From Paludibacter sp. (GTDB lineage: Bacteria > Bacteroidota > Bacteroidia > Bacteroidales > Paludibacteraceae): a stretch of DNA of 48,581 nucleotides. A program made the position numbers and the translations under genes. Positions within the stretch are counted from its first letter, which is position 1. Every line of letters starts with the position of its first letter. The notes beneath the pieces were generated by a model, which worked only from the letters and a program-made list of their open reading frames with translations, was not told where the DNA came from and made no database searches. Location of the stretch: contig JAIFKQ010000030.1 of the NCBI GenBank assembly GCA_020049515.1, forward strand, positions 1-48,581. Reading direction: 5' to 3'. This document shows, piece after piece, positions 33,701 to 47,040 of this stretch.

Positions 33701-35545
33701 ATGAAAAAAAAAATCCTTTTTCTGCTTCATTTTCCACCACCTATCCATGGGTCATCTATAATGGGGCAAGAAATTAAAGAAAGTAATTATATAAATAATT
33801 CGTTTGATTGCAGATACATAAATATGCTTGTTAATCAAAACATTAATGAGTCTGGAAAAATTGGAATTATAAAAGGAATTCAATTTATTCCCACCCTATT
33901 TCAATTAATATCCGAAACCATAAAAAATAGACCAGATGTATGCTATTTGGCATTAACCACTACTGGAATAGGATTATATAAAGATGCTTTGGTGGTGGCT
34001 ATGTTACGTTTATTTGGTATAAAACGGGTTTATCATCTTCATAATAAAGGTATTATTGAGAATAGTAAAATTAAGTTTAACAATTTTATCTATCGGTATA
34101 TTTTTAAAGATGCAGATATCATTCTATTATCCAACCATTTATACAATGATATTGAAGCTTATGTGCCCACATCCAGGGTGCATATTTGTCCAAATGGAAT
34201 TGGTAACTCCGATTATTCAGTTATAAAAACATATCGGTTTAAGCATGAGGAACCAGTACAATTATTGTTTTTCTCTAATTTGATTGAATCAAAAGGTGTT
34301 TATGTGTTGCTGGAAGCATGTAAGTTACTGATAAACAGAAACAATAATTTTATTTGTAGGTTTGCAGGAAGCATTGGGAATGTGAGTGAACAAGACTTTA
34401 ATTTGAAAGTACAACAGTTTGGGCTAGAAAATAATGTAAGATATTTAGGACCGCAATATGAAAATGACAAAGAAATAGTCTTTCAAAATGCAGATATTTT
34501 TGTTCATCCTACTTATAATGATTGCTTTCCGTTGGTTTTGATAGAAGCCATGCAATATTCGTTACCCATAGTTTCAACGGATGAAGGCGGAATACCCGAA
34601 ATGCTTACAAACGGTGTATCAGGATTTCTTGTTCCACAAAAAGATGCAGAAAAACTGTCGGAAAAAATAGAATTATTAATACAAAATCCTACGCTGCGCT
34701 TAAAAATGGGCAAAGCAGGTAGATTAAAATATGAAGCAGAATTTACAAAGGCGACATTTGAAAATAAAATGCATGCTATTTTACAGAATATTATTTCAAT
34801 CGAAAATAATTCAATGAAAATAATAGAAACAATTGGCTTCAATGTATTTTCTGATAATTTAGCTACAATACCTATTCAGGGCGAAAAGTGTAGGGTGATA
34901 AATACCATTAGCCCAAACTCTTATGGTATTTCTACCAAGGATTTAGAATTTGAAAATGCCCTAAAATCTTCCGACTTTCTGGTATTAGATGGAGTTTATT
35001 TTGGCTTATCATCTTTGATTATAAATAAAAAAAATATAAAAAAAAATCAGGGTCCAGATGTGTTTTATCATTTTATAGAAAGAATTAACACACAAAAAGG
35101 AAGTGCATTTTTTTTTGGATCTACAGAAAACACACTTCAAAAAATTAAATCGCGAGCTAGGATTGAATATCCAAATATCGATGTGAATTTTTTCTCTCCG
35201 CCATTTAAAACAGAGTTTACGGATTTAGAAAACGAGCTAATAATAAAAAGAATAAATGCCGTAAAACCAGATATTTTATTTGTAGGAATGACCTGTCCCA
35301 AACAAGAGAAGTGGGCATTAAAGCATCGTGACAAGTTAAATGTAGGATTAATTATATGTATTGGCAATGTTTTCGATTGGTTTGCAGGTACCCAAAAGCC
35401 TATTCCAGCATTTTGGTATAAAATAAGACTTGGGTGGCTTGCTCGCATTTTTATGCGTCCTGAAATTTTCAAAAGAAATATTGGTAATCAAATGGTTTTT
35501 TTATGGCACGTAATATTGATATTTTTAAAAATCAAAAAGGTATGA
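33701..35545 (+). CDS. Fused GT4 / WecG-TagA-CpsF (GT26) bifunctional glycosyltransferase
   Basis: The 614-residue ORF contains two complete glycosyltransferases. Residues 1-371 are a GT4 enzyme with FPPPIHGSSIMGQE, LLFFSNLIESKGVYVLLEAC and the E-x7-E region LVLIEAMQYSLPIVST. Residues 372-614 begin with a Met (34814) and match the full WecG/TagA family: LDGVYFGL, KNQGPDVFYHF, FFFGSTENTL, GMTCPKQEKWA and the C-terminal ARIFMRPE. Each half has the length of a free-standing enzyme, so this is a genuine in-frame fusion or a lost stop codon. It probably adds two sugars, one after the other, to the lipid-linked unit. The stop overlaps the next gene by ATGA. Confidence 0.88.
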   Translation: MKKKILFLLHFPPPIHGSSIMGQEIKESNYINNSFDCRYINMLVNQNINESGKIGIIKGIQFIPTLFQLISETIKNRPDVCYLALTTTGIGLYKDALVVAMLRLFGIKRVYHLHNKGIIENSKIKFNNFIYRYIFKDADIILLSNHLYNDIEAYVPTSRVHICPNGIGNSDYSVIKTYRFKHEEPVQLLFFSNLIESKGVYVLLEACKLLINRNNNFICRFAGSIGNVSEQDFNLKVQQFGLENNVRYLGPQYENDKEIVFQNADIFVHPTYNDCFPLVLIEAMQYSLPIVSTDEGGIPEMLTNGVSGFLVPQKDAEKLSEKIELLIQNPTLRLKMGKAGRLKYEAEFTKATFENKMHAILQNIISIENNSMKIIETIGFNVFSDNLATIPIQGEKCRVINTISPNSYGISTKDLEFENALKSSDFLVLDGVYFGLSSLIINKKNIKKNQGPDVFYHFIERINTQKGSAFFFGSTENTLQKIKSRARIEYPNIDVNFFSPPFKTEFTDLENELIIKRINAVKPDILFVGMTCPKQEKWALKHRDKLNVGLIICIGNVFDWFAGTQKPIPAFWYKIRLGWLARIFMRPEIFKRNIGNQMVFLWHVILIFLKIKKV

Positions 35546-36558
35546 TAACTGGAGCAGTAATAGGATTGGGTAAAATGGGAATTTCACATGCCGCTATAAT
35601 TGGTGCAAATCCACTGGTCAATTTTGTGGCAGTTTGTGATAGTTCTACTTTAGTATTGGATGCTTTTAAGAAATTTAGCACGGTAAAAACATACCGAAAT
35701 TTCAAAGAAATGATTGATAATGAGTCCCTAGACTTTGTATTGGTGGCTACTCCCACTCGATTTCATTTTCCAATGGTAAAATATGCGCTTGAAAATGGAT
35801 TACATGTATTTTGCGAGAAGCCATTTAACTTAAATTCAAAAGACGGCGAAGAGCTAGTACAATTGGCCAACAGCAAGTCGTTAATCAATCAAGTAGGTTA
35901 TCACAACCAATTTATTGGAACTTTTAGAGAACTCAAAAGATTGCTACAAGCCGATGTTTTGGGAGATTTGGTGCATTTTATGGGCGAGGCTTATGGTGCA
36001 GTAGTTACAAAAGAAAAGGGAAAAACTTGGAGGTCGAATGCTGAAGAAGGTGGAGGATGTTTGTACGATTACGCATCACATGTGTTAAATTTAATTCAGG
36101 AAATCATAGGTAATCCGGTTCATTCTGCTGGCACAAAACTAAAAAGCATCTATTCTAATGATGTTGAAGATGCGGTTTATAGCACATTAAGTTTAGATAA
36201 TGGTTTGAGCGGACTGCTTTCGGTAAACTGGAGCGACAATACATATCGAAAAATGTCCACTACGCTAACCGTAATTGGCAAAAACGGCAAAATTAGTTGC
36301 GATGCCACTGAAATAAAAATATATCTAAAAGAATCGAATAAAAAAGAGGGTTTAGACAAAGGATGGACTATCAAATACATTACGGATTTTGCCCTTCCAG
36401 TAAATTTCTATTTGCGTGGTGAAGAATATAGTGCTCAAATAGAACACTTTGTAAATTGCATTATCACAAAAAAACAGGGAAGTTACAATACCTTTGAACA
36501 AGGGAACAATACAGATAAAGTGATAGAAATGATAATTGCTAATTCTAAAAAAAATTGA
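35542..36558 (+). CDS. Gfo/Idh/MocA-family oxidoreductase
   Basis: The preferred ATG at 35542 overlaps the previous stop as ATGA and gives 338 residues; the track start at 35503 lies inside the fusion gene. The Rossmann motif GAVIGLGKMGISHA opens the protein and the catalytic EKPF segment is near residue 95. GGGCLYDYASHVLNL near residue 172 carries the usual Asp/His pair. These NAD(P)-dependent enzymes oxidise or reduce sugar hydroxyl groups, often on nucleotide sugars. It is followed 6 bp later by an unknown protein, suggesting a two-gene module. Confidence 0.93.
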   Translation: MITGAVIGLGKMGISHAAIIGANPLVNFVAVCDSSTLVLDAFKKFSTVKTYRNFKEMIDNESLDFVLVATPTRFHFPMVKYALENGLHVFCEKPFNLNSKDGEELVQLANSKSLINQVGYHNQFIGTFRELKRLLQADVLGDLVHFMGEAYGAVVTKEKGKTWRSNAEEGGGCLYDYASHVLNLIQEIIGNPVHSAGTKLKSIYSNDVEDAVYSTLSLDNGLSGLLSVNWSDNTYRKMSTTLTVIGKNGKISCDATEIKIYLKESNKKEGLDKGWTIKYITDFALPVNFYLRGEEYSAQIEHFVNCIITKKQGSYNTFEQGNNTDKVIEMIIANSKKN

Positions 36559-36564
36559 AACATC

Positions 36565-37419
36565 ATGGATAAAATACTATTTGGCGACAATCAGTTTTTT
36601 GCGGTAAATCATGTTTCGGATGAAAAATCACGAGCTCAATCAATTCAATTTAAGGAAGATGCAGCCATTATTAAAATACTCGACCAAGCTATAGACGTGG
36701 GAATTAACACGTTTATGTGTACCACGCACGAGAGAATTGCAAATATATGTAATTACATTAGGTTAAATCCGAAAAAATACCAAAATTTTAATATCTATCC
36801 GTGCATGCCTTATGCTCACAAATATGCAAACGCTGTTACTGAACTTGGAATTATGGGTACTATCAAAAATTATATTCCAGGTAGTATTTTTGGAACCTTT
36901 GCAAAAGGTGGTTTTGCACTTATGAGCAAAGATTTTATTAAGCTCATGGAACTTTTGATTGATGCCGAAATGAAAATGTTTAAAGACCTAAATACCCCAG
37001 TTATTTTTATCCAAAATGTTATTGTTGATATGATATTGGGGTTAAAAATGTATGACATTTTTAAATCTTACGATCAATATATCCGCACAAAATACAACGC
37101 TGAGCCTGGATATATTACCATGAATATGCCCCTGTTGCTAGATAGTTTGAATTCGGTGGGAATTATGAATCCAATTATCTGTAGCTCAATCAATAAAATA
37201 GGCTTTAGAATGAGTGGCGGAGTAGAAATTTACGAGAAATACCTCTCCGAAAAGCAATTTCGACCAATTGCCATGCAAGTGCTTGCTTCTGGTGCTTTAC
37301 ATCCAAGCGAAGCAATTGAATACTTGGGAAAATTTCCAAATATTGAATCTGTTTTATTTGGCGCCTCAACAAAAAGTCACATACAGGAAACCAAAATGCT
37401 TATAAATAAGCACTTATAA
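36565..37419 (+). CDS. Unrecognised TIM-barrel-like protein paired with the MocA oxidoreductase
   Basis: The 284-residue protein starts MDKILFGDNQFFAVNHVSDE. Its alternation of strands and helices, with late repeats such as PIAMQVLASGALHP and SVLFGASTKSHIQETKMLI, suggests a (beta/alpha)8 barrel of the aldo-keto reductase or a similar type. The ending SVLFGAST...I resembles the closing strand and cofactor loop of AKRs. I see no convincing catalytic tetrad and do not recognise the family. There is no signal peptide. The 6-bp gap after the oxidoreductase gene implies a shared step in sugar synthesis; this is context only. Confidence 0.55.
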   Translation: MDKILFGDNQFFAVNHVSDEKSRAQSIQFKEDAAIIKILDQAIDVGINTFMCTTHERIANICNYIRLNPKKYQNFNIYPCMPYAHKYANAVTELGIMGTIKNYIPGSIFGTFAKGGFALMSKDFIKLMELLIDAEMKMFKDLNTPVIFIQNVIVDMILGLKMYDIFKSYDQYIRTKYNAEPGYITMNMPLLLDSLNSVGIMNPIICSSINKIGFRMSGGVEIYEKYLSEKQFRPIAMQVLASGALHPSEAIEYLGKFPNIESVLFGASTKSHIQETKMLINKHL

Positions 37420-38016: not shown

Positions 38017-38742
38017 ATGGAACTTAAATCATTTATTTATTGGAAGTTGGTATATCCAATCATACTTAGATTGGATAAATTTCGTGGTTTGGATTTTTTG
38101 TCGGAAATGTCGCCCGAAGCCCTACAATTCAATCTCAAACGCGCACATGGATATGGTCCGTCTGGCAAAAATTTTTTGAAAGAGGTGCTAAGTGACTTCA
38201 ATATTAGTTCTACCGACTCCATAATAGATGTAGGATGCGGCAAAGGAAGCGCAATGAAGTATTTACTAGATTTCCCTTTTGAAAGGGTAGATGGGATTGA
38301 GCTTTCTGGCCTTATTGCCGATATTGCTACCCAAAATTTCAAAAAATTAAACGAAAATAGATGCCGAGTGTTCACGGGAGATGCTGGATATTTTAACCAA
38401 TATGATGATTATAATTATATCTATTTTTACAATCCATTTCCACCAATAGTTATGGCAGAAGTAATTGAAAATCTGAAATTTTCATTGCAACGAATTGACA
38501 GAGAAATGGTTATAATTTACATGAGCCCTACCTGCAACCATATTATTGCAGAAAGTGGTATATTTACACAAGTAGGCGCATATTATAAAAACGATGCCTG
38601 GATAACAGTTTATAGCAATAGAAGCATAGACAAATCGGTATTATCATATAATAAAAAAATTCATCGAAGTATTGAAGGAACTCCTTTGAACGATGCGCTT
38701 AAAGTGTATTTGCAAAATTACGTATTAAAAGCATACAAATAG
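38017..38742 (+). CDS. SAM-dependent methyltransferase (tandem copy 1)
   Basis: The 241-residue class I methyltransferase has motif I DVGCGKGSAM near residue 72, an acidic segment VDGIELSG after it and FTGDAGYF. The motif IV region YFYNPFPP resembles the (N/D)PF pattern more common in N-methyltransferases, but this is weak evidence. The N-terminal 50 residues (FIYWKLVYPIILRLDKFRGLDFL) are shared with copy 2 and may bind the acceptor. The substrate is unknown; a sugar of the polymer is likely by context. Confidence 0.85.
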   Translation: MELKSFIYWKLVYPIILRLDKFRGLDFLSEMSPEALQFNLKRAHGYGPSGKNFLKEVLSDFNISSTDSIIDVGCGKGSAMKYLLDFPFERVDGIELSGLIADIATQNFKKLNENRCRVFTGDAGYFNQYDDYNYIYFYNPFPPIVMAEVIENLKFSLQRIDREMVIIYMSPTCNHIIAESGIFTQVGAYYKNDAWITVYSNRSIDKSVLSYNKKIHRSIEGTPLNDALKVYLQNYVLKAYK

Positions 38743-38827
38743 AAAAATGAACGAATAAAAGCTTGATTTTATAATGTGAACTTGATGTAAATATTCAGCA
38801 CAATTCAATTAATCAAAAAAAAATAAT

Positions 38828-39565
38828 ATGGATTACAAAGCATTAGTTTATTGGAAGTTAGTGTACCCAATCACTATAAAAATGGATAGTTATCAAGGCT
38901 TAGATTTTTTGCCCAAAATCACTGCCAAAGCTGTAGGTTTAGATATAAAGCGTTCATTTGGATATTCTCCATCGCATAAAAGATTTCTGATAGAGCTGCT
39001 CAATGATTTTAGTATTACGTCCAATGATACCATTATTGATGTGGGTTGTGGCAAAGGAAGTGCAATGCGCACCATGTTAAAATACACATTTTCCAAAGTG
39101 GATGGAATTGAGCTATCTAGTATAATTGCCAATATAGCTATTCAAAATTTTAAAAGATTGAAGGTAAATAGATGTAGCGTTTTTACAGGCGATGCTGGTC
39201 AATTTAAAATATACAACGACTACAATTATGTCTATTTTTTCAATCCATTTCCAGCTGTTGTAATGAAAGAAGTAATTGAAAACTTAAAAAAATCGGCACA
39301 ACTAGTTGACAGGGAAATAATTATAATATACATGAGTCCAACCTGTACCGATGTGATTGAAAAAAGTGGGGTATTTGAACTTAGAGGAATATATAAAAGA
39401 ACAGGCGCTTGGGTCACTGTTTACTCTAACCGGAGCTTAAAAAATTCTACACTTTCATCAAATAAGAAAATGATTCCTTGCACAGAAAGCTCCGACATCA
39501 AAAAGGAATTACAACTATACTTACAAAATTTTATTCAACCCGATTATATAGATCGTATCAAATAA
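38828..39565 (+). CDS. SAM-dependent methyltransferase (tandem copy 2)
   Basis: The 245-residue protein is a clear paralogue of the preceding gene along its whole length. The N-terminal region is LVYWKLVYPITIKMDSYQGL, motif I is DVGCGKGSAM, and the motif IV region is YFFNPFPA. The C-terminal IIIIYMSPTCTDVIEKSGVF is also conserved. Differences are spread evenly, so both copies look functional and may methylate different positions. It begins 85 bp after copy 1 on the same strand. Confidence 0.85.
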   Translation: MDYKALVYWKLVYPITIKMDSYQGLDFLPKITAKAVGLDIKRSFGYSPSHKRFLIELLNDFSITSNDTIIDVGCGKGSAMRTMLKYTFSKVDGIELSSIIANIAIQNFKRLKVNRCSVFTGDAGQFKIYNDYNYVYFFNPFPAVVMKEVIENLKKSAQLVDREIIIIYMSPTCTDVIEKSGVFELRGIYKRTGAWVTVYSNRSLKNSTLSSNKKMIPCTESSDIKKELQLYLQNFIQPDYIDRIK

Positions 39566-39897: not shown

Positions 39898-40917
39898 ATG
39901 ATAACAATAGAACATTTTGAGGGTTTACCAACAGAACATGAATCATTTTTAATAAACAGATACAATTCATTTATAACTACTTGTAGGTACATTGAAATTT
40001 ATCATCCCGATTATTACATTTATTATATGCTCGTTTACGAAGACAGTGAACTAGTTGATTTATTGATATTTGGTAATAAAGGAAATACGGCAAGATGCTT
40101 TAATGCACTTGTCAATATCAATCAGAATACCATTTCGGGATGCATAAATTTACTTTTTATACAGTCGCCATTTATACAAAAGGTGATGATTGATGCATCG
40201 TTAACGCCGTATAAATTAAAGTATTCATTTCTAATAACCAAATCAGAAGATTATGTTATTAATCTTCCCACAAATATCAACGATTATTATAAAGAATTGG
40301 GACTGAGTACCAGAAGAAATTTAAAAAGTCGCAAAAATAAATTATTAAAAAATTTCAACTCTGTAAATTATTTCACTAAATATAACTGTGATATCAATGA
40401 CGAAATAATTGACAAAATAGTTCAAATGAACTATAACAGAATGAAATACAAAGGAGTAGTTCCGCACATCGACAACAAATATAAAAATAATATTTTCAAG
40501 TACTCTCAACACTACGGTTGCGCTTCATATTTAGAGCTGGATGGTGAAATGGTAGCTGGATGTATAGCTACCATTTTAAACAAAGATATTTTTTTACATG
40601 TATTTTCTCACGATAACAATTTTTCTAAATACAATGTAGGTGAAAGCTGTGTATTTAACCTAATAACAACGGCCATTGAGAATGACTTGTCAACCTTTCA
40701 TTTCCTGTGGGGAAGCAGCGATTTAAAATCAAGATTTCAAGTAAAACCGACAATTTTGTTTTCAAGTTTTGTTTACAGAGGATACTCATTAGACTTCTTT
40801 ACAAACAAATTATCTACTTTTTTTTTAACGGCTTTCAGCCAGTTTAAACTTTCAGCATTTTCCAAACCATTAAAAAAAACCGTGAAATTTTACCGTAAAA
40901 TAAATTCCAAAGTGTAA
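39898..40917 (+). CDS. CelD/BcsL-type GNAT acyltransferase, paralogue A'
   Basis: The 339-residue protein has the same layout as the gene at 29444: TRRNLKSRKNKLLKNF near residue 140, CIATILNKDIFLHVFSHDNN and FLWGSSDLKSRF. The residues GNKGNT, YSQHYGC and the C-terminal YSLDFFTNKL are shared with copy A or the lost tail of B. It is closer to A than to the following gene. Acyl donor and acceptor are unknown. It starts the second pair after an AT-rich spacer. Confidence 0.76.
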   Translation: MITIEHFEGLPTEHESFLINRYNSFITTCRYIEIYHPDYYIYYMLVYEDSELVDLLIFGNKGNTARCFNALVNINQNTISGCINLLFIQSPFIQKVMIDASLTPYKLKYSFLITKSEDYVINLPTNINDYYKELGLSTRRNLKSRKNKLLKNFNSVNYFTKYNCDINDEIIDKIVQMNYNRMKYKGVVPHIDNKYKNNIFKYSQHYGCASYLELDGEMVAGCIATILNKDIFLHVFSHDNNFSKYNVGESCVFNLITTAIENDLSTFHFLWGSSDLKSRFQVKPTILFSSFVYRGYSLDFFTNKLSTFFLTAFSQFKLSAFSKPLKKTVKFYRKINSKV

Positions 40918-41038
40918 AATTAAAAAGCTTAATTACTTGGAGTAATGATTTATACAAGAAATCTCTTTTACATATAATTAAAAAAAAAAGTACCATATAT
41001 AGGTAATTAGTCAACAACTACTGTTAATAAATTTGAGT

Positions 41039-42073
41039 ATGACTACAATCAAATGTTTGAATGGCTTGCCTTTAGAATATGAATCATTTCTGATTAGTAA
41101 ATACGAGTCGTATTTGACCACATGCCGATATATTGAAATATATTATCCTACTTACATCATAGATTTCATGCTTGTATATAATGAAAATAGCTTAATTGAA
41201 TTATTAATATTTGGCACCAATGGAAGCACTTCAAAATGTTTCAATTCATTTGCCAGTATAGATCCAACTATAATTTCAGAATGCATCAATATTTATTTTG
41301 AAAATCATCCGTCTATACCAATGATAAAAGTTGATGCATTAAGTAAAGAGTACAATTTAAAAAAAGCTATTTTACATGATAAAGCCAATGAGTATGTCAT
41401 TAATTTATCTTCAACAGTTGACGAATATTATCTACAACTAGGTCGTAGCACTCGAAAATCTGTACGAAATCATAAATCGAAACTGATTAGAGATTATCCA
41501 AATGTAAACTTTATTACTAAGTATGGGATAGAAATTGAAGAGAAAGTTATTGATAAAATTATAGAATTGAATATTGCCCGAATGAAATATAAAGGAATAA
41601 TGCCAGCGAAAGACCTAAATGAGGCCAAGCGAATATTCAGATATTGTAAATATTATGGCATTGTAACTTACATTGAAATTGATAATATAATAGTAGCTGG
41701 AGATATTGCGTATATTCTGGATAAACGTATGTTTACTGAAGTGATAGGACATGACAATGATTTTTCGGCGTACAATTTGGGCGAAGTATGTATGTTTCAG
41801 CTTATTGAGGCAGCTATAAATGGTGGATTTGAAACATTGTATATGTCGTGGGGCTATAATGAGTATAAAAAGCGCTTATTGGCAAAGCCGCATATTTTGT
41901 ATTCCTATTCAATATATCGAACATATTCTTTGGCTTACATTCTTAAAAGTATTAATGCATTGGTAGTTCTAAATATTACAAGGTTTAGACTCTCGAAATA
42001 CTCAATGCCAATAAGGAATGCTATTAAGTATTACAGAAAAAGAAAATGGTCGTTAGTATTAAGTAGAAATTAA
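41039..42073 (+). CDS. CelD/BcsL-type GNAT acyltransferase, paralogue B'
   Basis: The preferred ATG at 41039 gives 344 residues; the track's TTG at 41033 is less likely. Typical parts are TRKSVRNHKSKLIRDY, DIAYILDKRMFTEVIGHDND and MSWGYNEYKKRL. It pairs with the gene at 30536 by KYYG.VTYIE and the EYK.RL ending. Its complete C-terminus (RLSKYSMPIRNAIKYYRKRKW) shows what the frameshifted copy lost. It may acylate an amino sugar of the polymer. Confidence 0.76.
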   Translation: MTTIKCLNGLPLEYESFLISKYESYLTTCRYIEIYYPTYIIDFMLVYNENSLIELLIFGTNGSTSKCFNSFASIDPTIISECINIYFENHPSIPMIKVDALSKEYNLKKAILHDKANEYVINLSSTVDEYYLQLGRSTRKSVRNHKSKLIRDYPNVNFITKYGIEIEEKVIDKIIELNIARMKYKGIMPAKDLNEAKRIFRYCKYYGIVTYIEIDNIIVAGDIAYILDKRMFTEVIGHDNDFSAYNLGEVCMFQLIEAAINGGFETLYMSWGYNEYKKRLLAKPHILYSYSIYRTYSLAYILKSINALVVLNITRFRLSKYSMPIRNAIKYYRKRKWSLVLSRN

Positions 42074-42140: not shown

Positions 42141-43451
42141 ATGAAAAGTTTTACAAGAGTAAATTATTACAAATTGGCAATAATATTATTTTTTAGTTTT
42201 AATGCTCATGGTCAAGATAACATTATAACACAAGAAAATAAGAAGGTGGATGATGCTATTTTGGAAGTAATTGATTCGATAAAAATATGTAAATGGAAAT
42301 ATGACGCTCAATCATGTATAAATTTCTCGTTTGATGACAATCTACTGTCACAAACAAAAATTTCAAAGATATTTGACCAATACGGATTCAAGTCCACCTA
42401 TTTTATCATACCGAATAGTATGTACATTGATAGCCTAAAAGATATGGCGGCACGAGGTCATGAAATTGGTAGCCATACATATTCGCACGTTTCACTTGGG
42501 GGTATTGATAGTTTAGAGATTGATTTTCAGACACGTAAATCGAAAGAAATGATTGAAAATTGTATAGGTATAAAGTGCCTTAGCTTTGCAGATCCGTACC
42601 ACGAAACGACGGAAATGAGCAAAAATATCGTTTTTAGCTACTATTCTTATGCTCGAAATTACTCAAAGTACATAAATCACAGTTACTATCCTCTTTTTTC
42701 TTCTTCCACATTACAGCAGCTTACAAATTATATATCCAAAGGAATATCAAAAGGGGAAATATTGTTAATTGCAGGACACGGATTAGAAGGTGATGGTTAC
42801 AGCCCTATAAGTGAACACTTTTTACGGGAGATTCTAAATTTAGTAAATGATTACAATTATAATGGAGTTTTGTGGGTAACTACTATAAAAGAAGGAATTC
42901 AATATGAGAATCTTTATCATGAATTAATGTTAGAAAAAAAATTTACAAACGACACTCTAATATTAAGTTTTAAAAACTTCAATAAATTGAAATACAAAAA
43001 TGAAGATAAGGCAATGATTAGCATAAAAATACCATTCAATAGCAGTTTCGAAATAACACGGGTAACACAAAATATAGAAAAAAAAATGCATGATGATAAA
43101 TATATTTTCACAATGGACTTAAAAAAAGACACTTCTATGGTGTTGATAATGAAGAACTCAAGTCCATTGACTAAAAATATAATTGATGAGTTTAAGACTA
43201 CAAATTTATTTACAATTTACCCAAATCCTATCCACAAAGTATTAAGAATTCAAGACTCAAGAATAATGGGAAATGGTGAAATTTTAAGCATTGAGATATT
43301 TAACACAGATGGAAAACTTATTCAAAAGCAAATAACAAATTTTTCTGAAATTGATGTTTCACGTCTCAAAAAGGGACTATACTTTGTGAAAAAAAATATG
43401 CAAATAGACTCAACGATCAAGGTTTACATGGCAAAATTTTTAAAGTTCTAA
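42141..43451 (+). CDS. T9SS-secreted CE4 polysaccharide deacetylase
   Basis: The 436-residue protein starts with a signal peptide (about residues 1-25, ending NAHG). The NodB domain has motif 1 FSFDDN (catalytic Asp-Asp) and motif 2 HTYSH (H-x3-H), with LIAGHGLEGD later. The C-terminal segment from about residue 350 (NLFTIYPNPIHKVLRIQ ... LKKGLYFVKK) is a type A T9SS sorting domain. The protein would deacetylate polysaccharide outside the outer membrane, after polymer export; this is inferred. It is the second CE4 gene of the cluster. Confidence 0.9.
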   Translation: MKSFTRVNYYKLAIILFFSFNAHGQDNIITQENKKVDDAILEVIDSIKICKWKYDAQSCINFSFDDNLLSQTKISKIFDQYGFKSTYFIIPNSMYIDSLKDMAARGHEIGSHTYSHVSLGGIDSLEIDFQTRKSKEMIENCIGIKCLSFADPYHETTEMSKNIVFSYYSYARNYSKYINHSYYPLFSSSTLQQLTNYISKGISKGEILLIAGHGLEGDGYSPISEHFLREILNLVNDYNYNGVLWVTTIKEGIQYENLYHELMLEKKFTNDTLILSFKNFNKLKYKNEDKAMISIKIPFNSSFEITRVTQNIEKKMHDDKYIFTMDLKKDTSMVLIMKNSSPLTKNIIDEFKTTNLFTIYPNPIHKVLRIQDSRIMGNGEILSIEIFNTDGKLIQKQITNFSEIDVSRLKKGLYFVKKNMQIDSTIKVYMAKFLKF

Positions 43452-43507: not shown

Positions 43508-45184
43508 ATGAAAATAATACTGTCATTTGTAGTGAGTATATATTTAACTTTCAATTTACAAGCAATAACATTAAACGTAGAAATGCCAGGTACATTATCT
43601 ATCTTAATGTCAGACTTTGACAAATCAACTCTAAAATTGCTTACAATAACGGGGAACATTGATGCCCGAGATGTAAAATTTATACGTGACGAACTACCAG
43701 AATTAGAGTATTTAGACATAAACGCCATCACAATAGAAAGTTATGAGGGAAATGACGGAACTTCAAACAATACATATTATCTCAAAGCTGAAATCCCTGA
43801 AAATGCATTCTTCAAAGATGAGTCATCACCCAACAAATTGATTTCTATTATTTTACCAGTATCCATAACTTCCATTGGAAATCGAGCTTTTTATGAATGT
43901 AACCTAATCAACACCATCAATATTCCAAAATTGGTAACTAACATTAGTCATTTGGCATTTCAAGAATGTGCAAGTTTATCTAATATAGAGGTCGATGATG
44001 AGAATACTACTTTTTCGGATGATAATGGCATCTTATTTAATAAGTTAAAAACACTACTTATTAGATGTCCTGTTCAAAAAAAAGGAATATATCAAACTCC
44101 CAATTCTGTTAACATTATAGACACCTATGCGTTTTACAATTGTAGGAATTTGACTGAAATAGAATTTCCAAATTCCATAAGCACATTAAAGTATGGAGCT
44201 TTTTACAATTGTTCAGAGCTTACAAATTTAAAGCTCCCTAATGCATTGATATGGATTGAAGCTTACGCATTTTACAATTGTAGTAGTCTGGAGGGCGAAA
44301 TTACGATACCAAACACAGTGAAAAACTTGGGCGATTATGCGTTTTATGAATGTAGCAGCTTTTCTAGTTTAACGATTGGTAATTCTGTTACTTCAATAAA
44401 TAAATTCTGCTTTTATAATTGTAAAAAACTAAGCTCAATATCCAATGCTAGTTCTGTAAAATTAATAAATGAATTTTCTTTTTTTAATTGTAATGCGCTC
44501 ACTGATGTTTCGTTTGGAAATACAGTAACTCACATAGGAAAGTATGCTTTCTCTGATTGTAATAATCTAATTAATTGCACTTTATCTAGTTCGCTTACCT
44601 ATATTGGCGAAGGGGCTTTTGGATATTGTAGAGGCCTTTCCAACATAGTTATTCCTAATTCTGTTAATTATATTGGAAATGGGGCTTTTGCTTTTTGTAG
44701 CGGAATAGTTACATATTTAATCATTCCGGAATCACTTTCATCAATTGGTGATTTTACATTTCGAGGTTGCAGTGGAATTAGTAACGTTTATATTCCAAAT
44801 TCGGTAACAATTATTGGGAACTCTGCATTTGAAAGCTGTAATAGCATAACTGAATTAGTGATACCAAGTGCAGTAATATCTATTGGCGCAAGTGCTTTTG
44901 CTGATTGTGTTGGAATGACTAAAGTTACAATGTCTGGCAAATTAAATTCTATATCAGCAAATGTATTTTGGGGTTGCAGGGCTTTAACAACAATTGTAGT
45001 TGATTTACCATCACCGATTAATTTGAGCAGTTCAAATGGGGTTTTCGAAGATGTAAACAAATCAGAATGCAAGCTTTTTGTACCTTCAGTAGCTGTAAAT
45101 GAATTTAAAAAAGCCGAGCAATGGAAAGATTTTAAACACATACTGCAACTATCAATTCCTTTACCCCCGGACCCTGGGTTGTAA
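43508..45184 (+). CDS. BspA-like leucine-rich repeat surface protein
   Basis: The 558-residue protein has a signal peptide (MKIILSFVVSIYLTFNLQA). An N-terminal domain common in Bacteroidota LRR proteins follows (TLNVEMPGTLSILM ... ITGNIDARDVKFI). From about residue 95 there are more than a dozen 23-residue LRR_5 repeats of the form IPNSVTSIGNYAFYNCSSL. These often mediate binding to surfaces or polymers. It ends at PLPPDPGL without the T9SS tail or a membrane anchor that relatives usually have, so it may be truncated or periplasmic. It closes the plus-strand cluster. Confidence 0.88.
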   Translation: MKIILSFVVSIYLTFNLQAITLNVEMPGTLSILMSDFDKSTLKLLTITGNIDARDVKFIRDELPELEYLDINAITIESYEGNDGTSNNTYYLKAEIPENAFFKDESSPNKLISIILPVSITSIGNRAFYECNLINTINIPKLVTNISHLAFQECASLSNIEVDDENTTFSDDNGILFNKLKTLLIRCPVQKKGIYQTPNSVNIIDTYAFYNCRNLTEIEFPNSISTLKYGAFYNCSELTNLKLPNALIWIEAYAFYNCSSLEGEITIPNTVKNLGDYAFYECSSFSSLTIGNSVTSINKFCFYNCKKLSSISNASSVKLINEFSFFNCNALTDVSFGNTVTHIGKYAFSDCNNLINCTLSSSLTYIGEGAFGYCRGLSNIVIPNSVNYIGNGAFAFCSGIVTYLIIPESLSSIGDFTFRGCSGISNVYIPNSVTIIGNSAFESCNSITELVIPSAVISIGASAFADCVGMTKVTMSGKLNSISANVFWGCRALTTIVVDLPSPINLSSSNGVFEDVNKSECKLFVPSVAVNEFKKAEQWKDFKHILQLSIPLPPDPGL

Positions 45185-46083: not shown

Positions 46084-47040
46084 ATGAGCATGTATAAAAA
46101 CGATATTAAAGTAATGGATTGCACCGTTCGCGACGGTGGATTAATGAACAAATGGCAATTTAGCGACGAGTTTGTAAAAGCAGTATATGATGCATGCGTA
46201 GAAGCAGGCATCGATTATATGGAAATTGGCTACCTAAGTAGCGAAAAAGCCTTTGACCGCAACGAAATGGGGCCTTGGAAATTTTGCCACCAAAAGGATT
46301 TGGAGCGAATTGTTGGTAAAAATGAAACCAATCTGAAATTGTCAGCCATGGCCGATATTGGACGTATTGAGCTAGATGATATCCCTTATGCGGCTGACAG
46401 TGCGTTGGATATGATTCGTGTAGCTTGTTATGTACATCAAGTGGACAAAGCGATTGCATTGGCACACCATTGTATGGATAAAGGTTATGAGGTGTGTATC
46501 AATTTGATGGCTGTTTCTACACTTGGAGAATTGGAACTTGATGAAGCGCTAAAAGACATTGCAAAATCACGAGTACCTGTATTTTATGCCGTAGATAGTT
46601 ATGGTAGCATGTATGTGGAATCTATACAACATTTAGTGCGCAAATATACAGCTGCTTTACCTGGCAAAGAGATTGGAATTCATGCACATAACAATATGCA
46701 AATGGCCATGTCTAACACCTACACCGCATTGATGGAAGGATGTACTATGCTGGATGCTACATTATTGGGATTAGGACGTGGAGCAGGTAATTGCCCAATA
46801 GAGATACTGATTGCATTTCTGAAAAACCCTAAATATCGCTTATTGCCTTTGTTGCAAGTAATTCAGGACCAAATACATCCAATGCAAAAACAAATCGACT
46901 GGGGCTACCACATTCCTTATTTAGTATCTGGTGCTTTAAATGCTCATCCCCGTAAAAGTATGGAGTGGATGGAATCGGACCGCAAAAATGATTTTGTTTC
47001 TTTTATGAAAGAAATGCATGATAACGAAATTTTGGAATAG
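46084..47040 (+). CDS. DRE-TIM metallolyase-type aldolase (HMG-CoA lyase / hydroxyoxovalerate aldolase-like)
   Basis: The 318-residue TIM barrel opens with DCTVRDGGLMNKW, which contains the D-x-x-R-D-G metal and catalytic motif. HAHNN near residue 200 gives the two metal-binding His. GLGRGAGNCPIE closes the barrel. The family performs retro-aldol or Claisen-type cleavage/condensation on 2-keto acids or acyl-CoA esters with a divalent metal. The exact substrate is not predictable, and the C-terminal communication domain of full-length DmpG-type aldolases is absent. It is plus-strand, followed by a strong terminator. Confidence 0.85.
   Translation: MSMYKNDIKVMDCTVRDGGLMNKWQFSDEFVKAVYDACVEAGIDYMEIGYLSSEKAFDRNEMGPWKFCHQKDLERIVGKNETNLKLSAMADIGRIELDDIPYAADSALDMIRVACYVHQVDKAIALAHHCMDKGYEVCINLMAVSTLGELELDEALKDIAKSRVPVFYAVDSYGSMYVESIQHLVRKYTAALPGKEIGIHAHNNMQMAMSNTYTALMEGCTMLDATLLGLGRGAGNCPIEILIAFLKNPKYRLLPLLQVIQDQIHPMQKQIDWGYHIPYLVSGALNAHPRKSMEWMESDRKNDFVSFMKEMHDNEILE

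Follow-up and report, generated by a model that had tools for sequence, protein, structure and literature searches.

The DNA analysed here (the window) is a 48,581-nucleotide stretch of Paludibacter sp., in which an oxidoreductase gene (M) is followed by a gene (Q) for a protein without a named family. The locus raises the question of what kind of protein Q is and what it does next to M. An earlier note on this DNA had seen in Q a divergent TIM barrel, and had suggested that the two may together yield an unusual sugar, for example through oxidation and another step such as epimerisation or transfer. The features discussed are collected in Table 1.

Table 1. Features of the M-Q locus in the window
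Feature	Position	Strand	Basis
GT4-WecG (WecG/TagA/CpsF, GT26-type) fused glycosyltransferase	33701..35545	+	PF00534, 4.2e-38; PF03808, 6.7e-39
M, Gfo/Idh/MocA oxidoreductase, partner of Q	35542..36558	+	Pfam; conserved start; co-occurrence
Q, 284-aa TIM-barrel protein (predicted) of an unnamed family, AKR-related fold	36565..37419	+	ORF, ATG start
Q motif 1, after strand 1: G7-D-N9-Q-F-F12-x-x-x-H16-x-S18	36583..36618	+	G7, N9, F12, H16 and S18 invariant
Q insertion between strands 3 and 4 (residues 82-140)	36808..36984	+	Conservation; comparison with L145; AlphaFold2
Q strand 8/helix 8 region, SxLFGAS(T/S)xxxIxET	37348..37416	+	Matches ordinary AKRs by sequence

Q is a conserved protein outside the named families

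A scan of a genome collection with one genome per species yielded 175 stretches that encode relatives of Q. Among the best 80 of these 175 relatives, the protein identity to Q is 65-81%, and the nearest ones belong to Prolixibacteraceae and other Bacteroidales. Outside Bacteroidota, the sampling of distant members relied mainly on plasmids and on a single search centred on Pontiellaceae. Alphaproteobacterial plasmids encode relatives with 51-54% identity in Palleronia and Rhodovulum and 50% in Novosphingobium, a plasmid of Bacteroides thetaiotaomicron carries one with 45% identity, and a far relative (L086, genome G035) retains 29%; a search of phages and viral contigs found none. The existence of 65-81%-identical relatives, together with about 27 columns that are strictly invariant in the 87 Q sequences of the conservation table, indicates far beyond chance that Q is a real gene. 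The invariant residues include G7, N9, F12, H16, S18, Y83, K86, D133, E135, D155, N187, N210, G266, and S268.

Q matched no family among Pfam, NCBIfam, and PDB sequences, in line with the earlier note, which could name no family for it, and a match to a known enzyme family with an intact active site, which the note had named as the finding that would speak against a new activity, was looked for in Q and not found. Wherever relatives of Q are annotated in plasmid records, the label is "hypothetical protein". An Rfam scan of the window gave no family, and the M-Q pair was not described in any paper that the literature searches brought up.

M and Q form a fixed pair

Analysis of the gene upstream of Q confirmed a true Gfo/Idh/MocA oxidoreductase, with three domains above cut-off (PF01408, 1.5e-24; PF22725, 4.7e-19; PF02894, 7.6e-17). 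Its open reading frame can be extended to 35503; the start is probably the ATG at 35542, because relatives begin there (the one in locus L076 starts MIKVALIGAGKMG) and this ATG overlaps the stop codon of the preceding transferase gene as ATGA. M has in common with Gfo/Idh/MocA sugar dehydrogenases the N-terminal Rossmann and C-terminal alpha/beta domains, the EKP motif, and the Asp and His of DYxSH. It also keeps the GxGKMG motif, and EKP and DYxSH are found in at least 97% of 78 sequences. The stop codon of M (TGA, 36556-36558) is separated by 6 bp from the ATG of Q at 36565, exactly as had been read earlier.

The loci used for the pairing analysis were gathered with Q alone and numbered 80, one of which is cut by a contig end. 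In each of the 79 assessable loci, M lies directly upstream of Q and shares its strand, with a gap of -8 to +13 bp, which bears out the proposed coupling of Q to an oxidoreductase. The same order is repeated on the alphaproteobacterial and Bacteroides plasmids (45-54% identity) and also in L086; in Novosphingobium the strict adjacency is broken by two small genes that separate M and Q. Of 297 Bacteroidota genomes, five encode Q, and M, at E<=1e-60, is found in the same five and at the same loci. Comparison of pairwise divergences revealed that Q and M vary together (r=0.90; the best of 500 permutations reached 0.10), with Q being the more conserved protein (mean identity 71% versus 60% for M). 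M and Q are a fixed pair in which M is the sole invariant partner of Q. The even draw of 297 genomes also shows the pair to be rare and patchy, a pattern common among accessory polysaccharide genes.

The pair is embedded in a polysaccharide cluster and accompanied by glycosyltransferase genes

The polysaccharide cluster, which is of the Wzx/Wzz type, extends from approximately 19.9 to 43.4 kb of the window. It contains genes for a Wza-type export protein, a Wzz/tyrosine kinase, a flippase, GT4 and GT2 transferases, FemAB-like acyltransferases, and polysaccharide deacetylases, so the polysaccharide setting that had been ascribed to Q is borne out. The gene directly upstream of M encodes the fused GT4-WecG glycosyltransferase, the likely user of the M-Q product in the window. 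When the gene before M was scanned in 49 loci, 22 matched Glycos_transf_1 (GT4-type) and 17 matched DUF354, tallies that may overlap. The DUF354 proteins, which stand immediately before M at L076:5960-6985 and in its relatives, are probably glycosyltransferases serving M-Q, and an example shows weak GT4 similarity. In 16 independent loci, among them the window and L086, a WecG-type gene stands two positions ahead of Q; in L087 and L088 (Palleronia and Rhodovulum) such a gene comes immediately after Q, with exosortase genes nearby. Behind Q, several Chitinophagaceae carry a wecB-type UDP-GlcNAc 2-epimerase gene.

Several further genes were observed around the pair. Directly after Q, two tandem methyltransferase-like proteins with 56% identity are encoded at 38017-39565, followed at 39898-42073 by two FemAB/GNAT-like proteins that look like duplicates. 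The cluster ends at 42141-43451 with a fusion of a polysaccharide deacetylase and a Por secretion C-terminal sorting domain, probably a secreted deacetylase, and a BspA-type leucine-rich-repeat protein (PF13306) adjoins the cluster at 43508-45184. A few kilobases past the cluster, positions 46084-47040 encode an HMGL-like TIM-barrel protein (PF00682, 5.5e-24), possibly an aldolase or synthase of a sugar-acid pathway.

The substrate of M is probably a common nucleotide sugar

M scored 103 bits (2e-29) against the UDP-GlcNAc 3-dehydrogenase model NF040723, which has a cut-off of 450, and 102 bits (3.1e-29) against the inositol 2-dehydrogenase model, which has a cut-off of 355. Because these scores are far under the equivalog cut-offs, the substrate of M is not readable from its family. 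Since only M and Q are constant, a common nucleotide sugar is the likely substrate. No further nucleotide-sugar enzymes were found among the scanned proteins of the window's cluster, which suggests a household sugar nucleotide; a GDP-mannose dehydratase and an epimerase are encoded at 8.3-10.5 kb of the window. The likeness of M to UDP-GlcNAc 3-dehydrogenase and the wecB-type gene after Q point towards a HexNAc. Known MocA enzymes, together with the weak UDP-GlcNAc 3-dehydrogenase similarity of M, suggest C3 as the oxidation site.

M is equally like the inositol 2-dehydrogenase models, and its best PDB sequence match is the myo-inositol 2-dehydrogenase 3cea (9.3e-25), so the substrate could be inositol or another polyol. 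In that case, inositol or a different non-nucleotide sugar alcohol would be processed by the pair and afterwards joined to the polysaccharide or a lipid. We regard this as very unlikely, given that all these model scores of M are far under the family cut-offs and that the pair is normally adjoined by a glycosyltransferase of classes that generally use nucleotide sugars.

Q is predicted to be a TIM barrel related to aldo-keto reductases

AlphaFold2 predicted an eight-stranded barrel for Q, with a mean pLDDT of 81 when 24 relatives were used and 84 when 68 were used, in line with the TIM barrel guessed from the letters. A Foldseek search with this model returned only aldo-keto reductase (AKR)-fold proteins among the best 50 PDB matches, with a top E-value of 3e-6 and, over these 50, TM-scores of approximately 0.45-0.66 and identities of 8-16%. 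After its own family, the Q profile weakly matches ordinary AKRs in several genomes, aligned over residues ~215-284 only. Six such proteins were scanned and all belong to PF00248; the match in genome G673 is an ordinary AKR. In hhalign, the strand 8/helix 8 stretch of Q aligned to AKRs with E=6e-4 and a probability of 29%, and the profile-profile comparison is weak outside strand 8. On the strength of the predicted fold and this stretch, we take Q to be a distant AKR-related TIM barrel.

Q shares the eight-stranded TIM barrel with the AKR superfamily (PF00248; for example 6hg6 and PA4992, 4exa), but differs from it in lacking a PF00248 match, in lacking the catalytic tetrad at its place, and in possessing the insertion between strands 3 and 4. 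The PF00248 profile did not match the Q of the window and, among 24 relatives, matched a single one at E=0.015. AKRs have a catalytic tetrad of Asp, Tyr, Lys, and His, placed where strands 2, 3, and 4 end. When positions were assigned by strand order from the conservation table and the model, the tetrad was not at its usual places in the 87 Q sequences. The strand ends instead carry M51-C52-T53-T54-H55 (strand 2), C80-M81-P82-Y83 (strand 3), and Q150-N151 (strand 4), and a His at position 150 is found in L086 only. With no family match and the tetrad apparently out of place, Q does not pass as an AKR. Q and its relatives gave no Pfam match to sugar-phosphate isomerase/epimerase barrels (AP_endonuc_2, IolE type) either; a single weak viral fold match was obtained (E=0.015).

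These residues bear on the reading that Q is a working reductase, in which M oxidises the sugar and Q then uses bound NAD(P)H to reduce the keto group on its opposite face, so that one carbon is inverted. The AKR-related fold and the retained AKR-like strand 8/helix 8 stretch would suit such a role, and there is a precedent: two reports on deoxynivalenol describe a dehydrogenase that forms the 3-keto compound and an AKR that then yields the 3-epimer (PMC11011506, PMC6056672). By strand order, however, the four AKR tetrad residues are missing from their usual strand ends in Q. This reading is our next guess for Q after isomerisation, and we consider it unlikely.

The invariant polar residues of Q gather at the C-terminal strand ends of the predicted model, which fits the active site expected of a TIM barrel. 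The insertion carries the segments P82-Y83-A-H-K86-Y and D133-A-E135, with residues 105-118 modelled at low confidence by AlphaFold2, and is possibly a lid or a partner surface.

Q might also be no enzyme at all and instead serve M or the transferase as a partner or regulator. Such a role has a model in SmbA of Caulobacter, whose structures 8bvb and 7b0e are among the best 50 fold matches of Q. SmbA has an AKR-like barrel and distant AKRs as its best BLAST relatives, and is a two-messenger switch that binds c-di-GMP and ppGpp rather than an AKR enzyme; it is apparently unique to prosthecate Caulobacterales (PMC9944927). The strict pairing of Q with M would also suit a subunit. Against this stand the greater conservation of Q than of M and the invariant polar residues at most strand ends, which are unusual for a scaffold. 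SmbA is also absent from the sequence matches of Q to PDB chains, shows no detectable sequence similarity to Q, and has a different gene setting. A partner or regulator role thus appears distinctly unlikely.

A second unnamed barrel family is apparently related to Q

Locus L145 (genome G825) encodes, at 1462-2244, a TIM-barrel-like protein with the motif GANPFGGFSHQSEE, which matched the Q-family profile with E=7.7e-5 and gave no Pfam family. Motif 1 of Q is found in L145 as GANPFGGFSHQS. The GxNPFxGFSHQS barrel family of L145 and Q have in common the motif G-x-N-x-x-x-G-x-x-H-x-S-E-E, colinear strands, and an Asp at the position of D155, and apparently belong to one wider superfamily. L145 differs from Q in that the identity is only ~17%, most of the insertion at residues 82-140 is missing, and no oxidoreductase gene adjoins it. 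Neither 248 Bacteroidota genomes nor eight carrier genomes yielded a convincing match to a DNA pattern for GGNPFSGFSH, which we take to be a motif of a related barrel family.

Discussion

Oxidation followed by a second step that yields an unusual sugar, as the earlier note had suggested, appears to be the best-supported reading of the pair. In the form that we favour, with a probability of roughly 0.55, M and Q constitute a two-enzyme module whose single product, a modified sugar donor for a surface polysaccharide, is used by the neighbouring transferase. M, as an NAD(P)-dependent enzyme, would oxidise a ring hydroxyl, most likely that at C3, of a nucleotide sugar already present in the cell. 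Q, an AKR-lineage TIM barrel with a rebuilt active site, would act on the resulting keto sugar. M may then re-reduce the product of Q, which would make the module redox neutral, and the glycosyltransferase encoded beside the pair, the GT4-WecG protein in the window, would move the product on. Because the transferase families beside the pair vary (GT4, DUF354, and WecG), a single product is an assumption.

For the reaction of Q, our leading guess, held tentatively, is isomerisation or epimerisation of the keto sugar by way of an enol, after which M would re-reduce the product; it is the first choice because the AKR redox residues are out of place. Most of the probability left by this guess and by reduction falls to dehydration or another reaction of Q. 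Transfer, the other second step that had been suggested, was rejected as the function of Q: a separate glycosyltransferase gene usually adjoins the pair, which makes transfer by Q less likely, and the predicted TIM barrel of Q is not a GT-A or GT-B fold.

Polysaccharide clusters of different phyla thus share a conserved and patchy module of two genes, and its second protein is highly conserved, never characterised, and has no entry in Pfam, NCBIfam, or PDB. The reaction of Q would probably identify the sugar, give the gene family a name, and show an AKR-type barrel turned to other chemistry, and M, Q, and the transferase provide a compact set for in vitro reconstitution. It is possible, if rather doubtful, that Q founds a new class of enzymes: its barrel, derived from AKRs, would have given up AKR redox chemistry and would isomerise, or eliminate from, a 3-keto nucleotide sugar supplied by M. 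If so, the surface polysaccharides of Bacteroidota and Alphaproteobacteria would gain a sugar with an undescribed biosynthesis.
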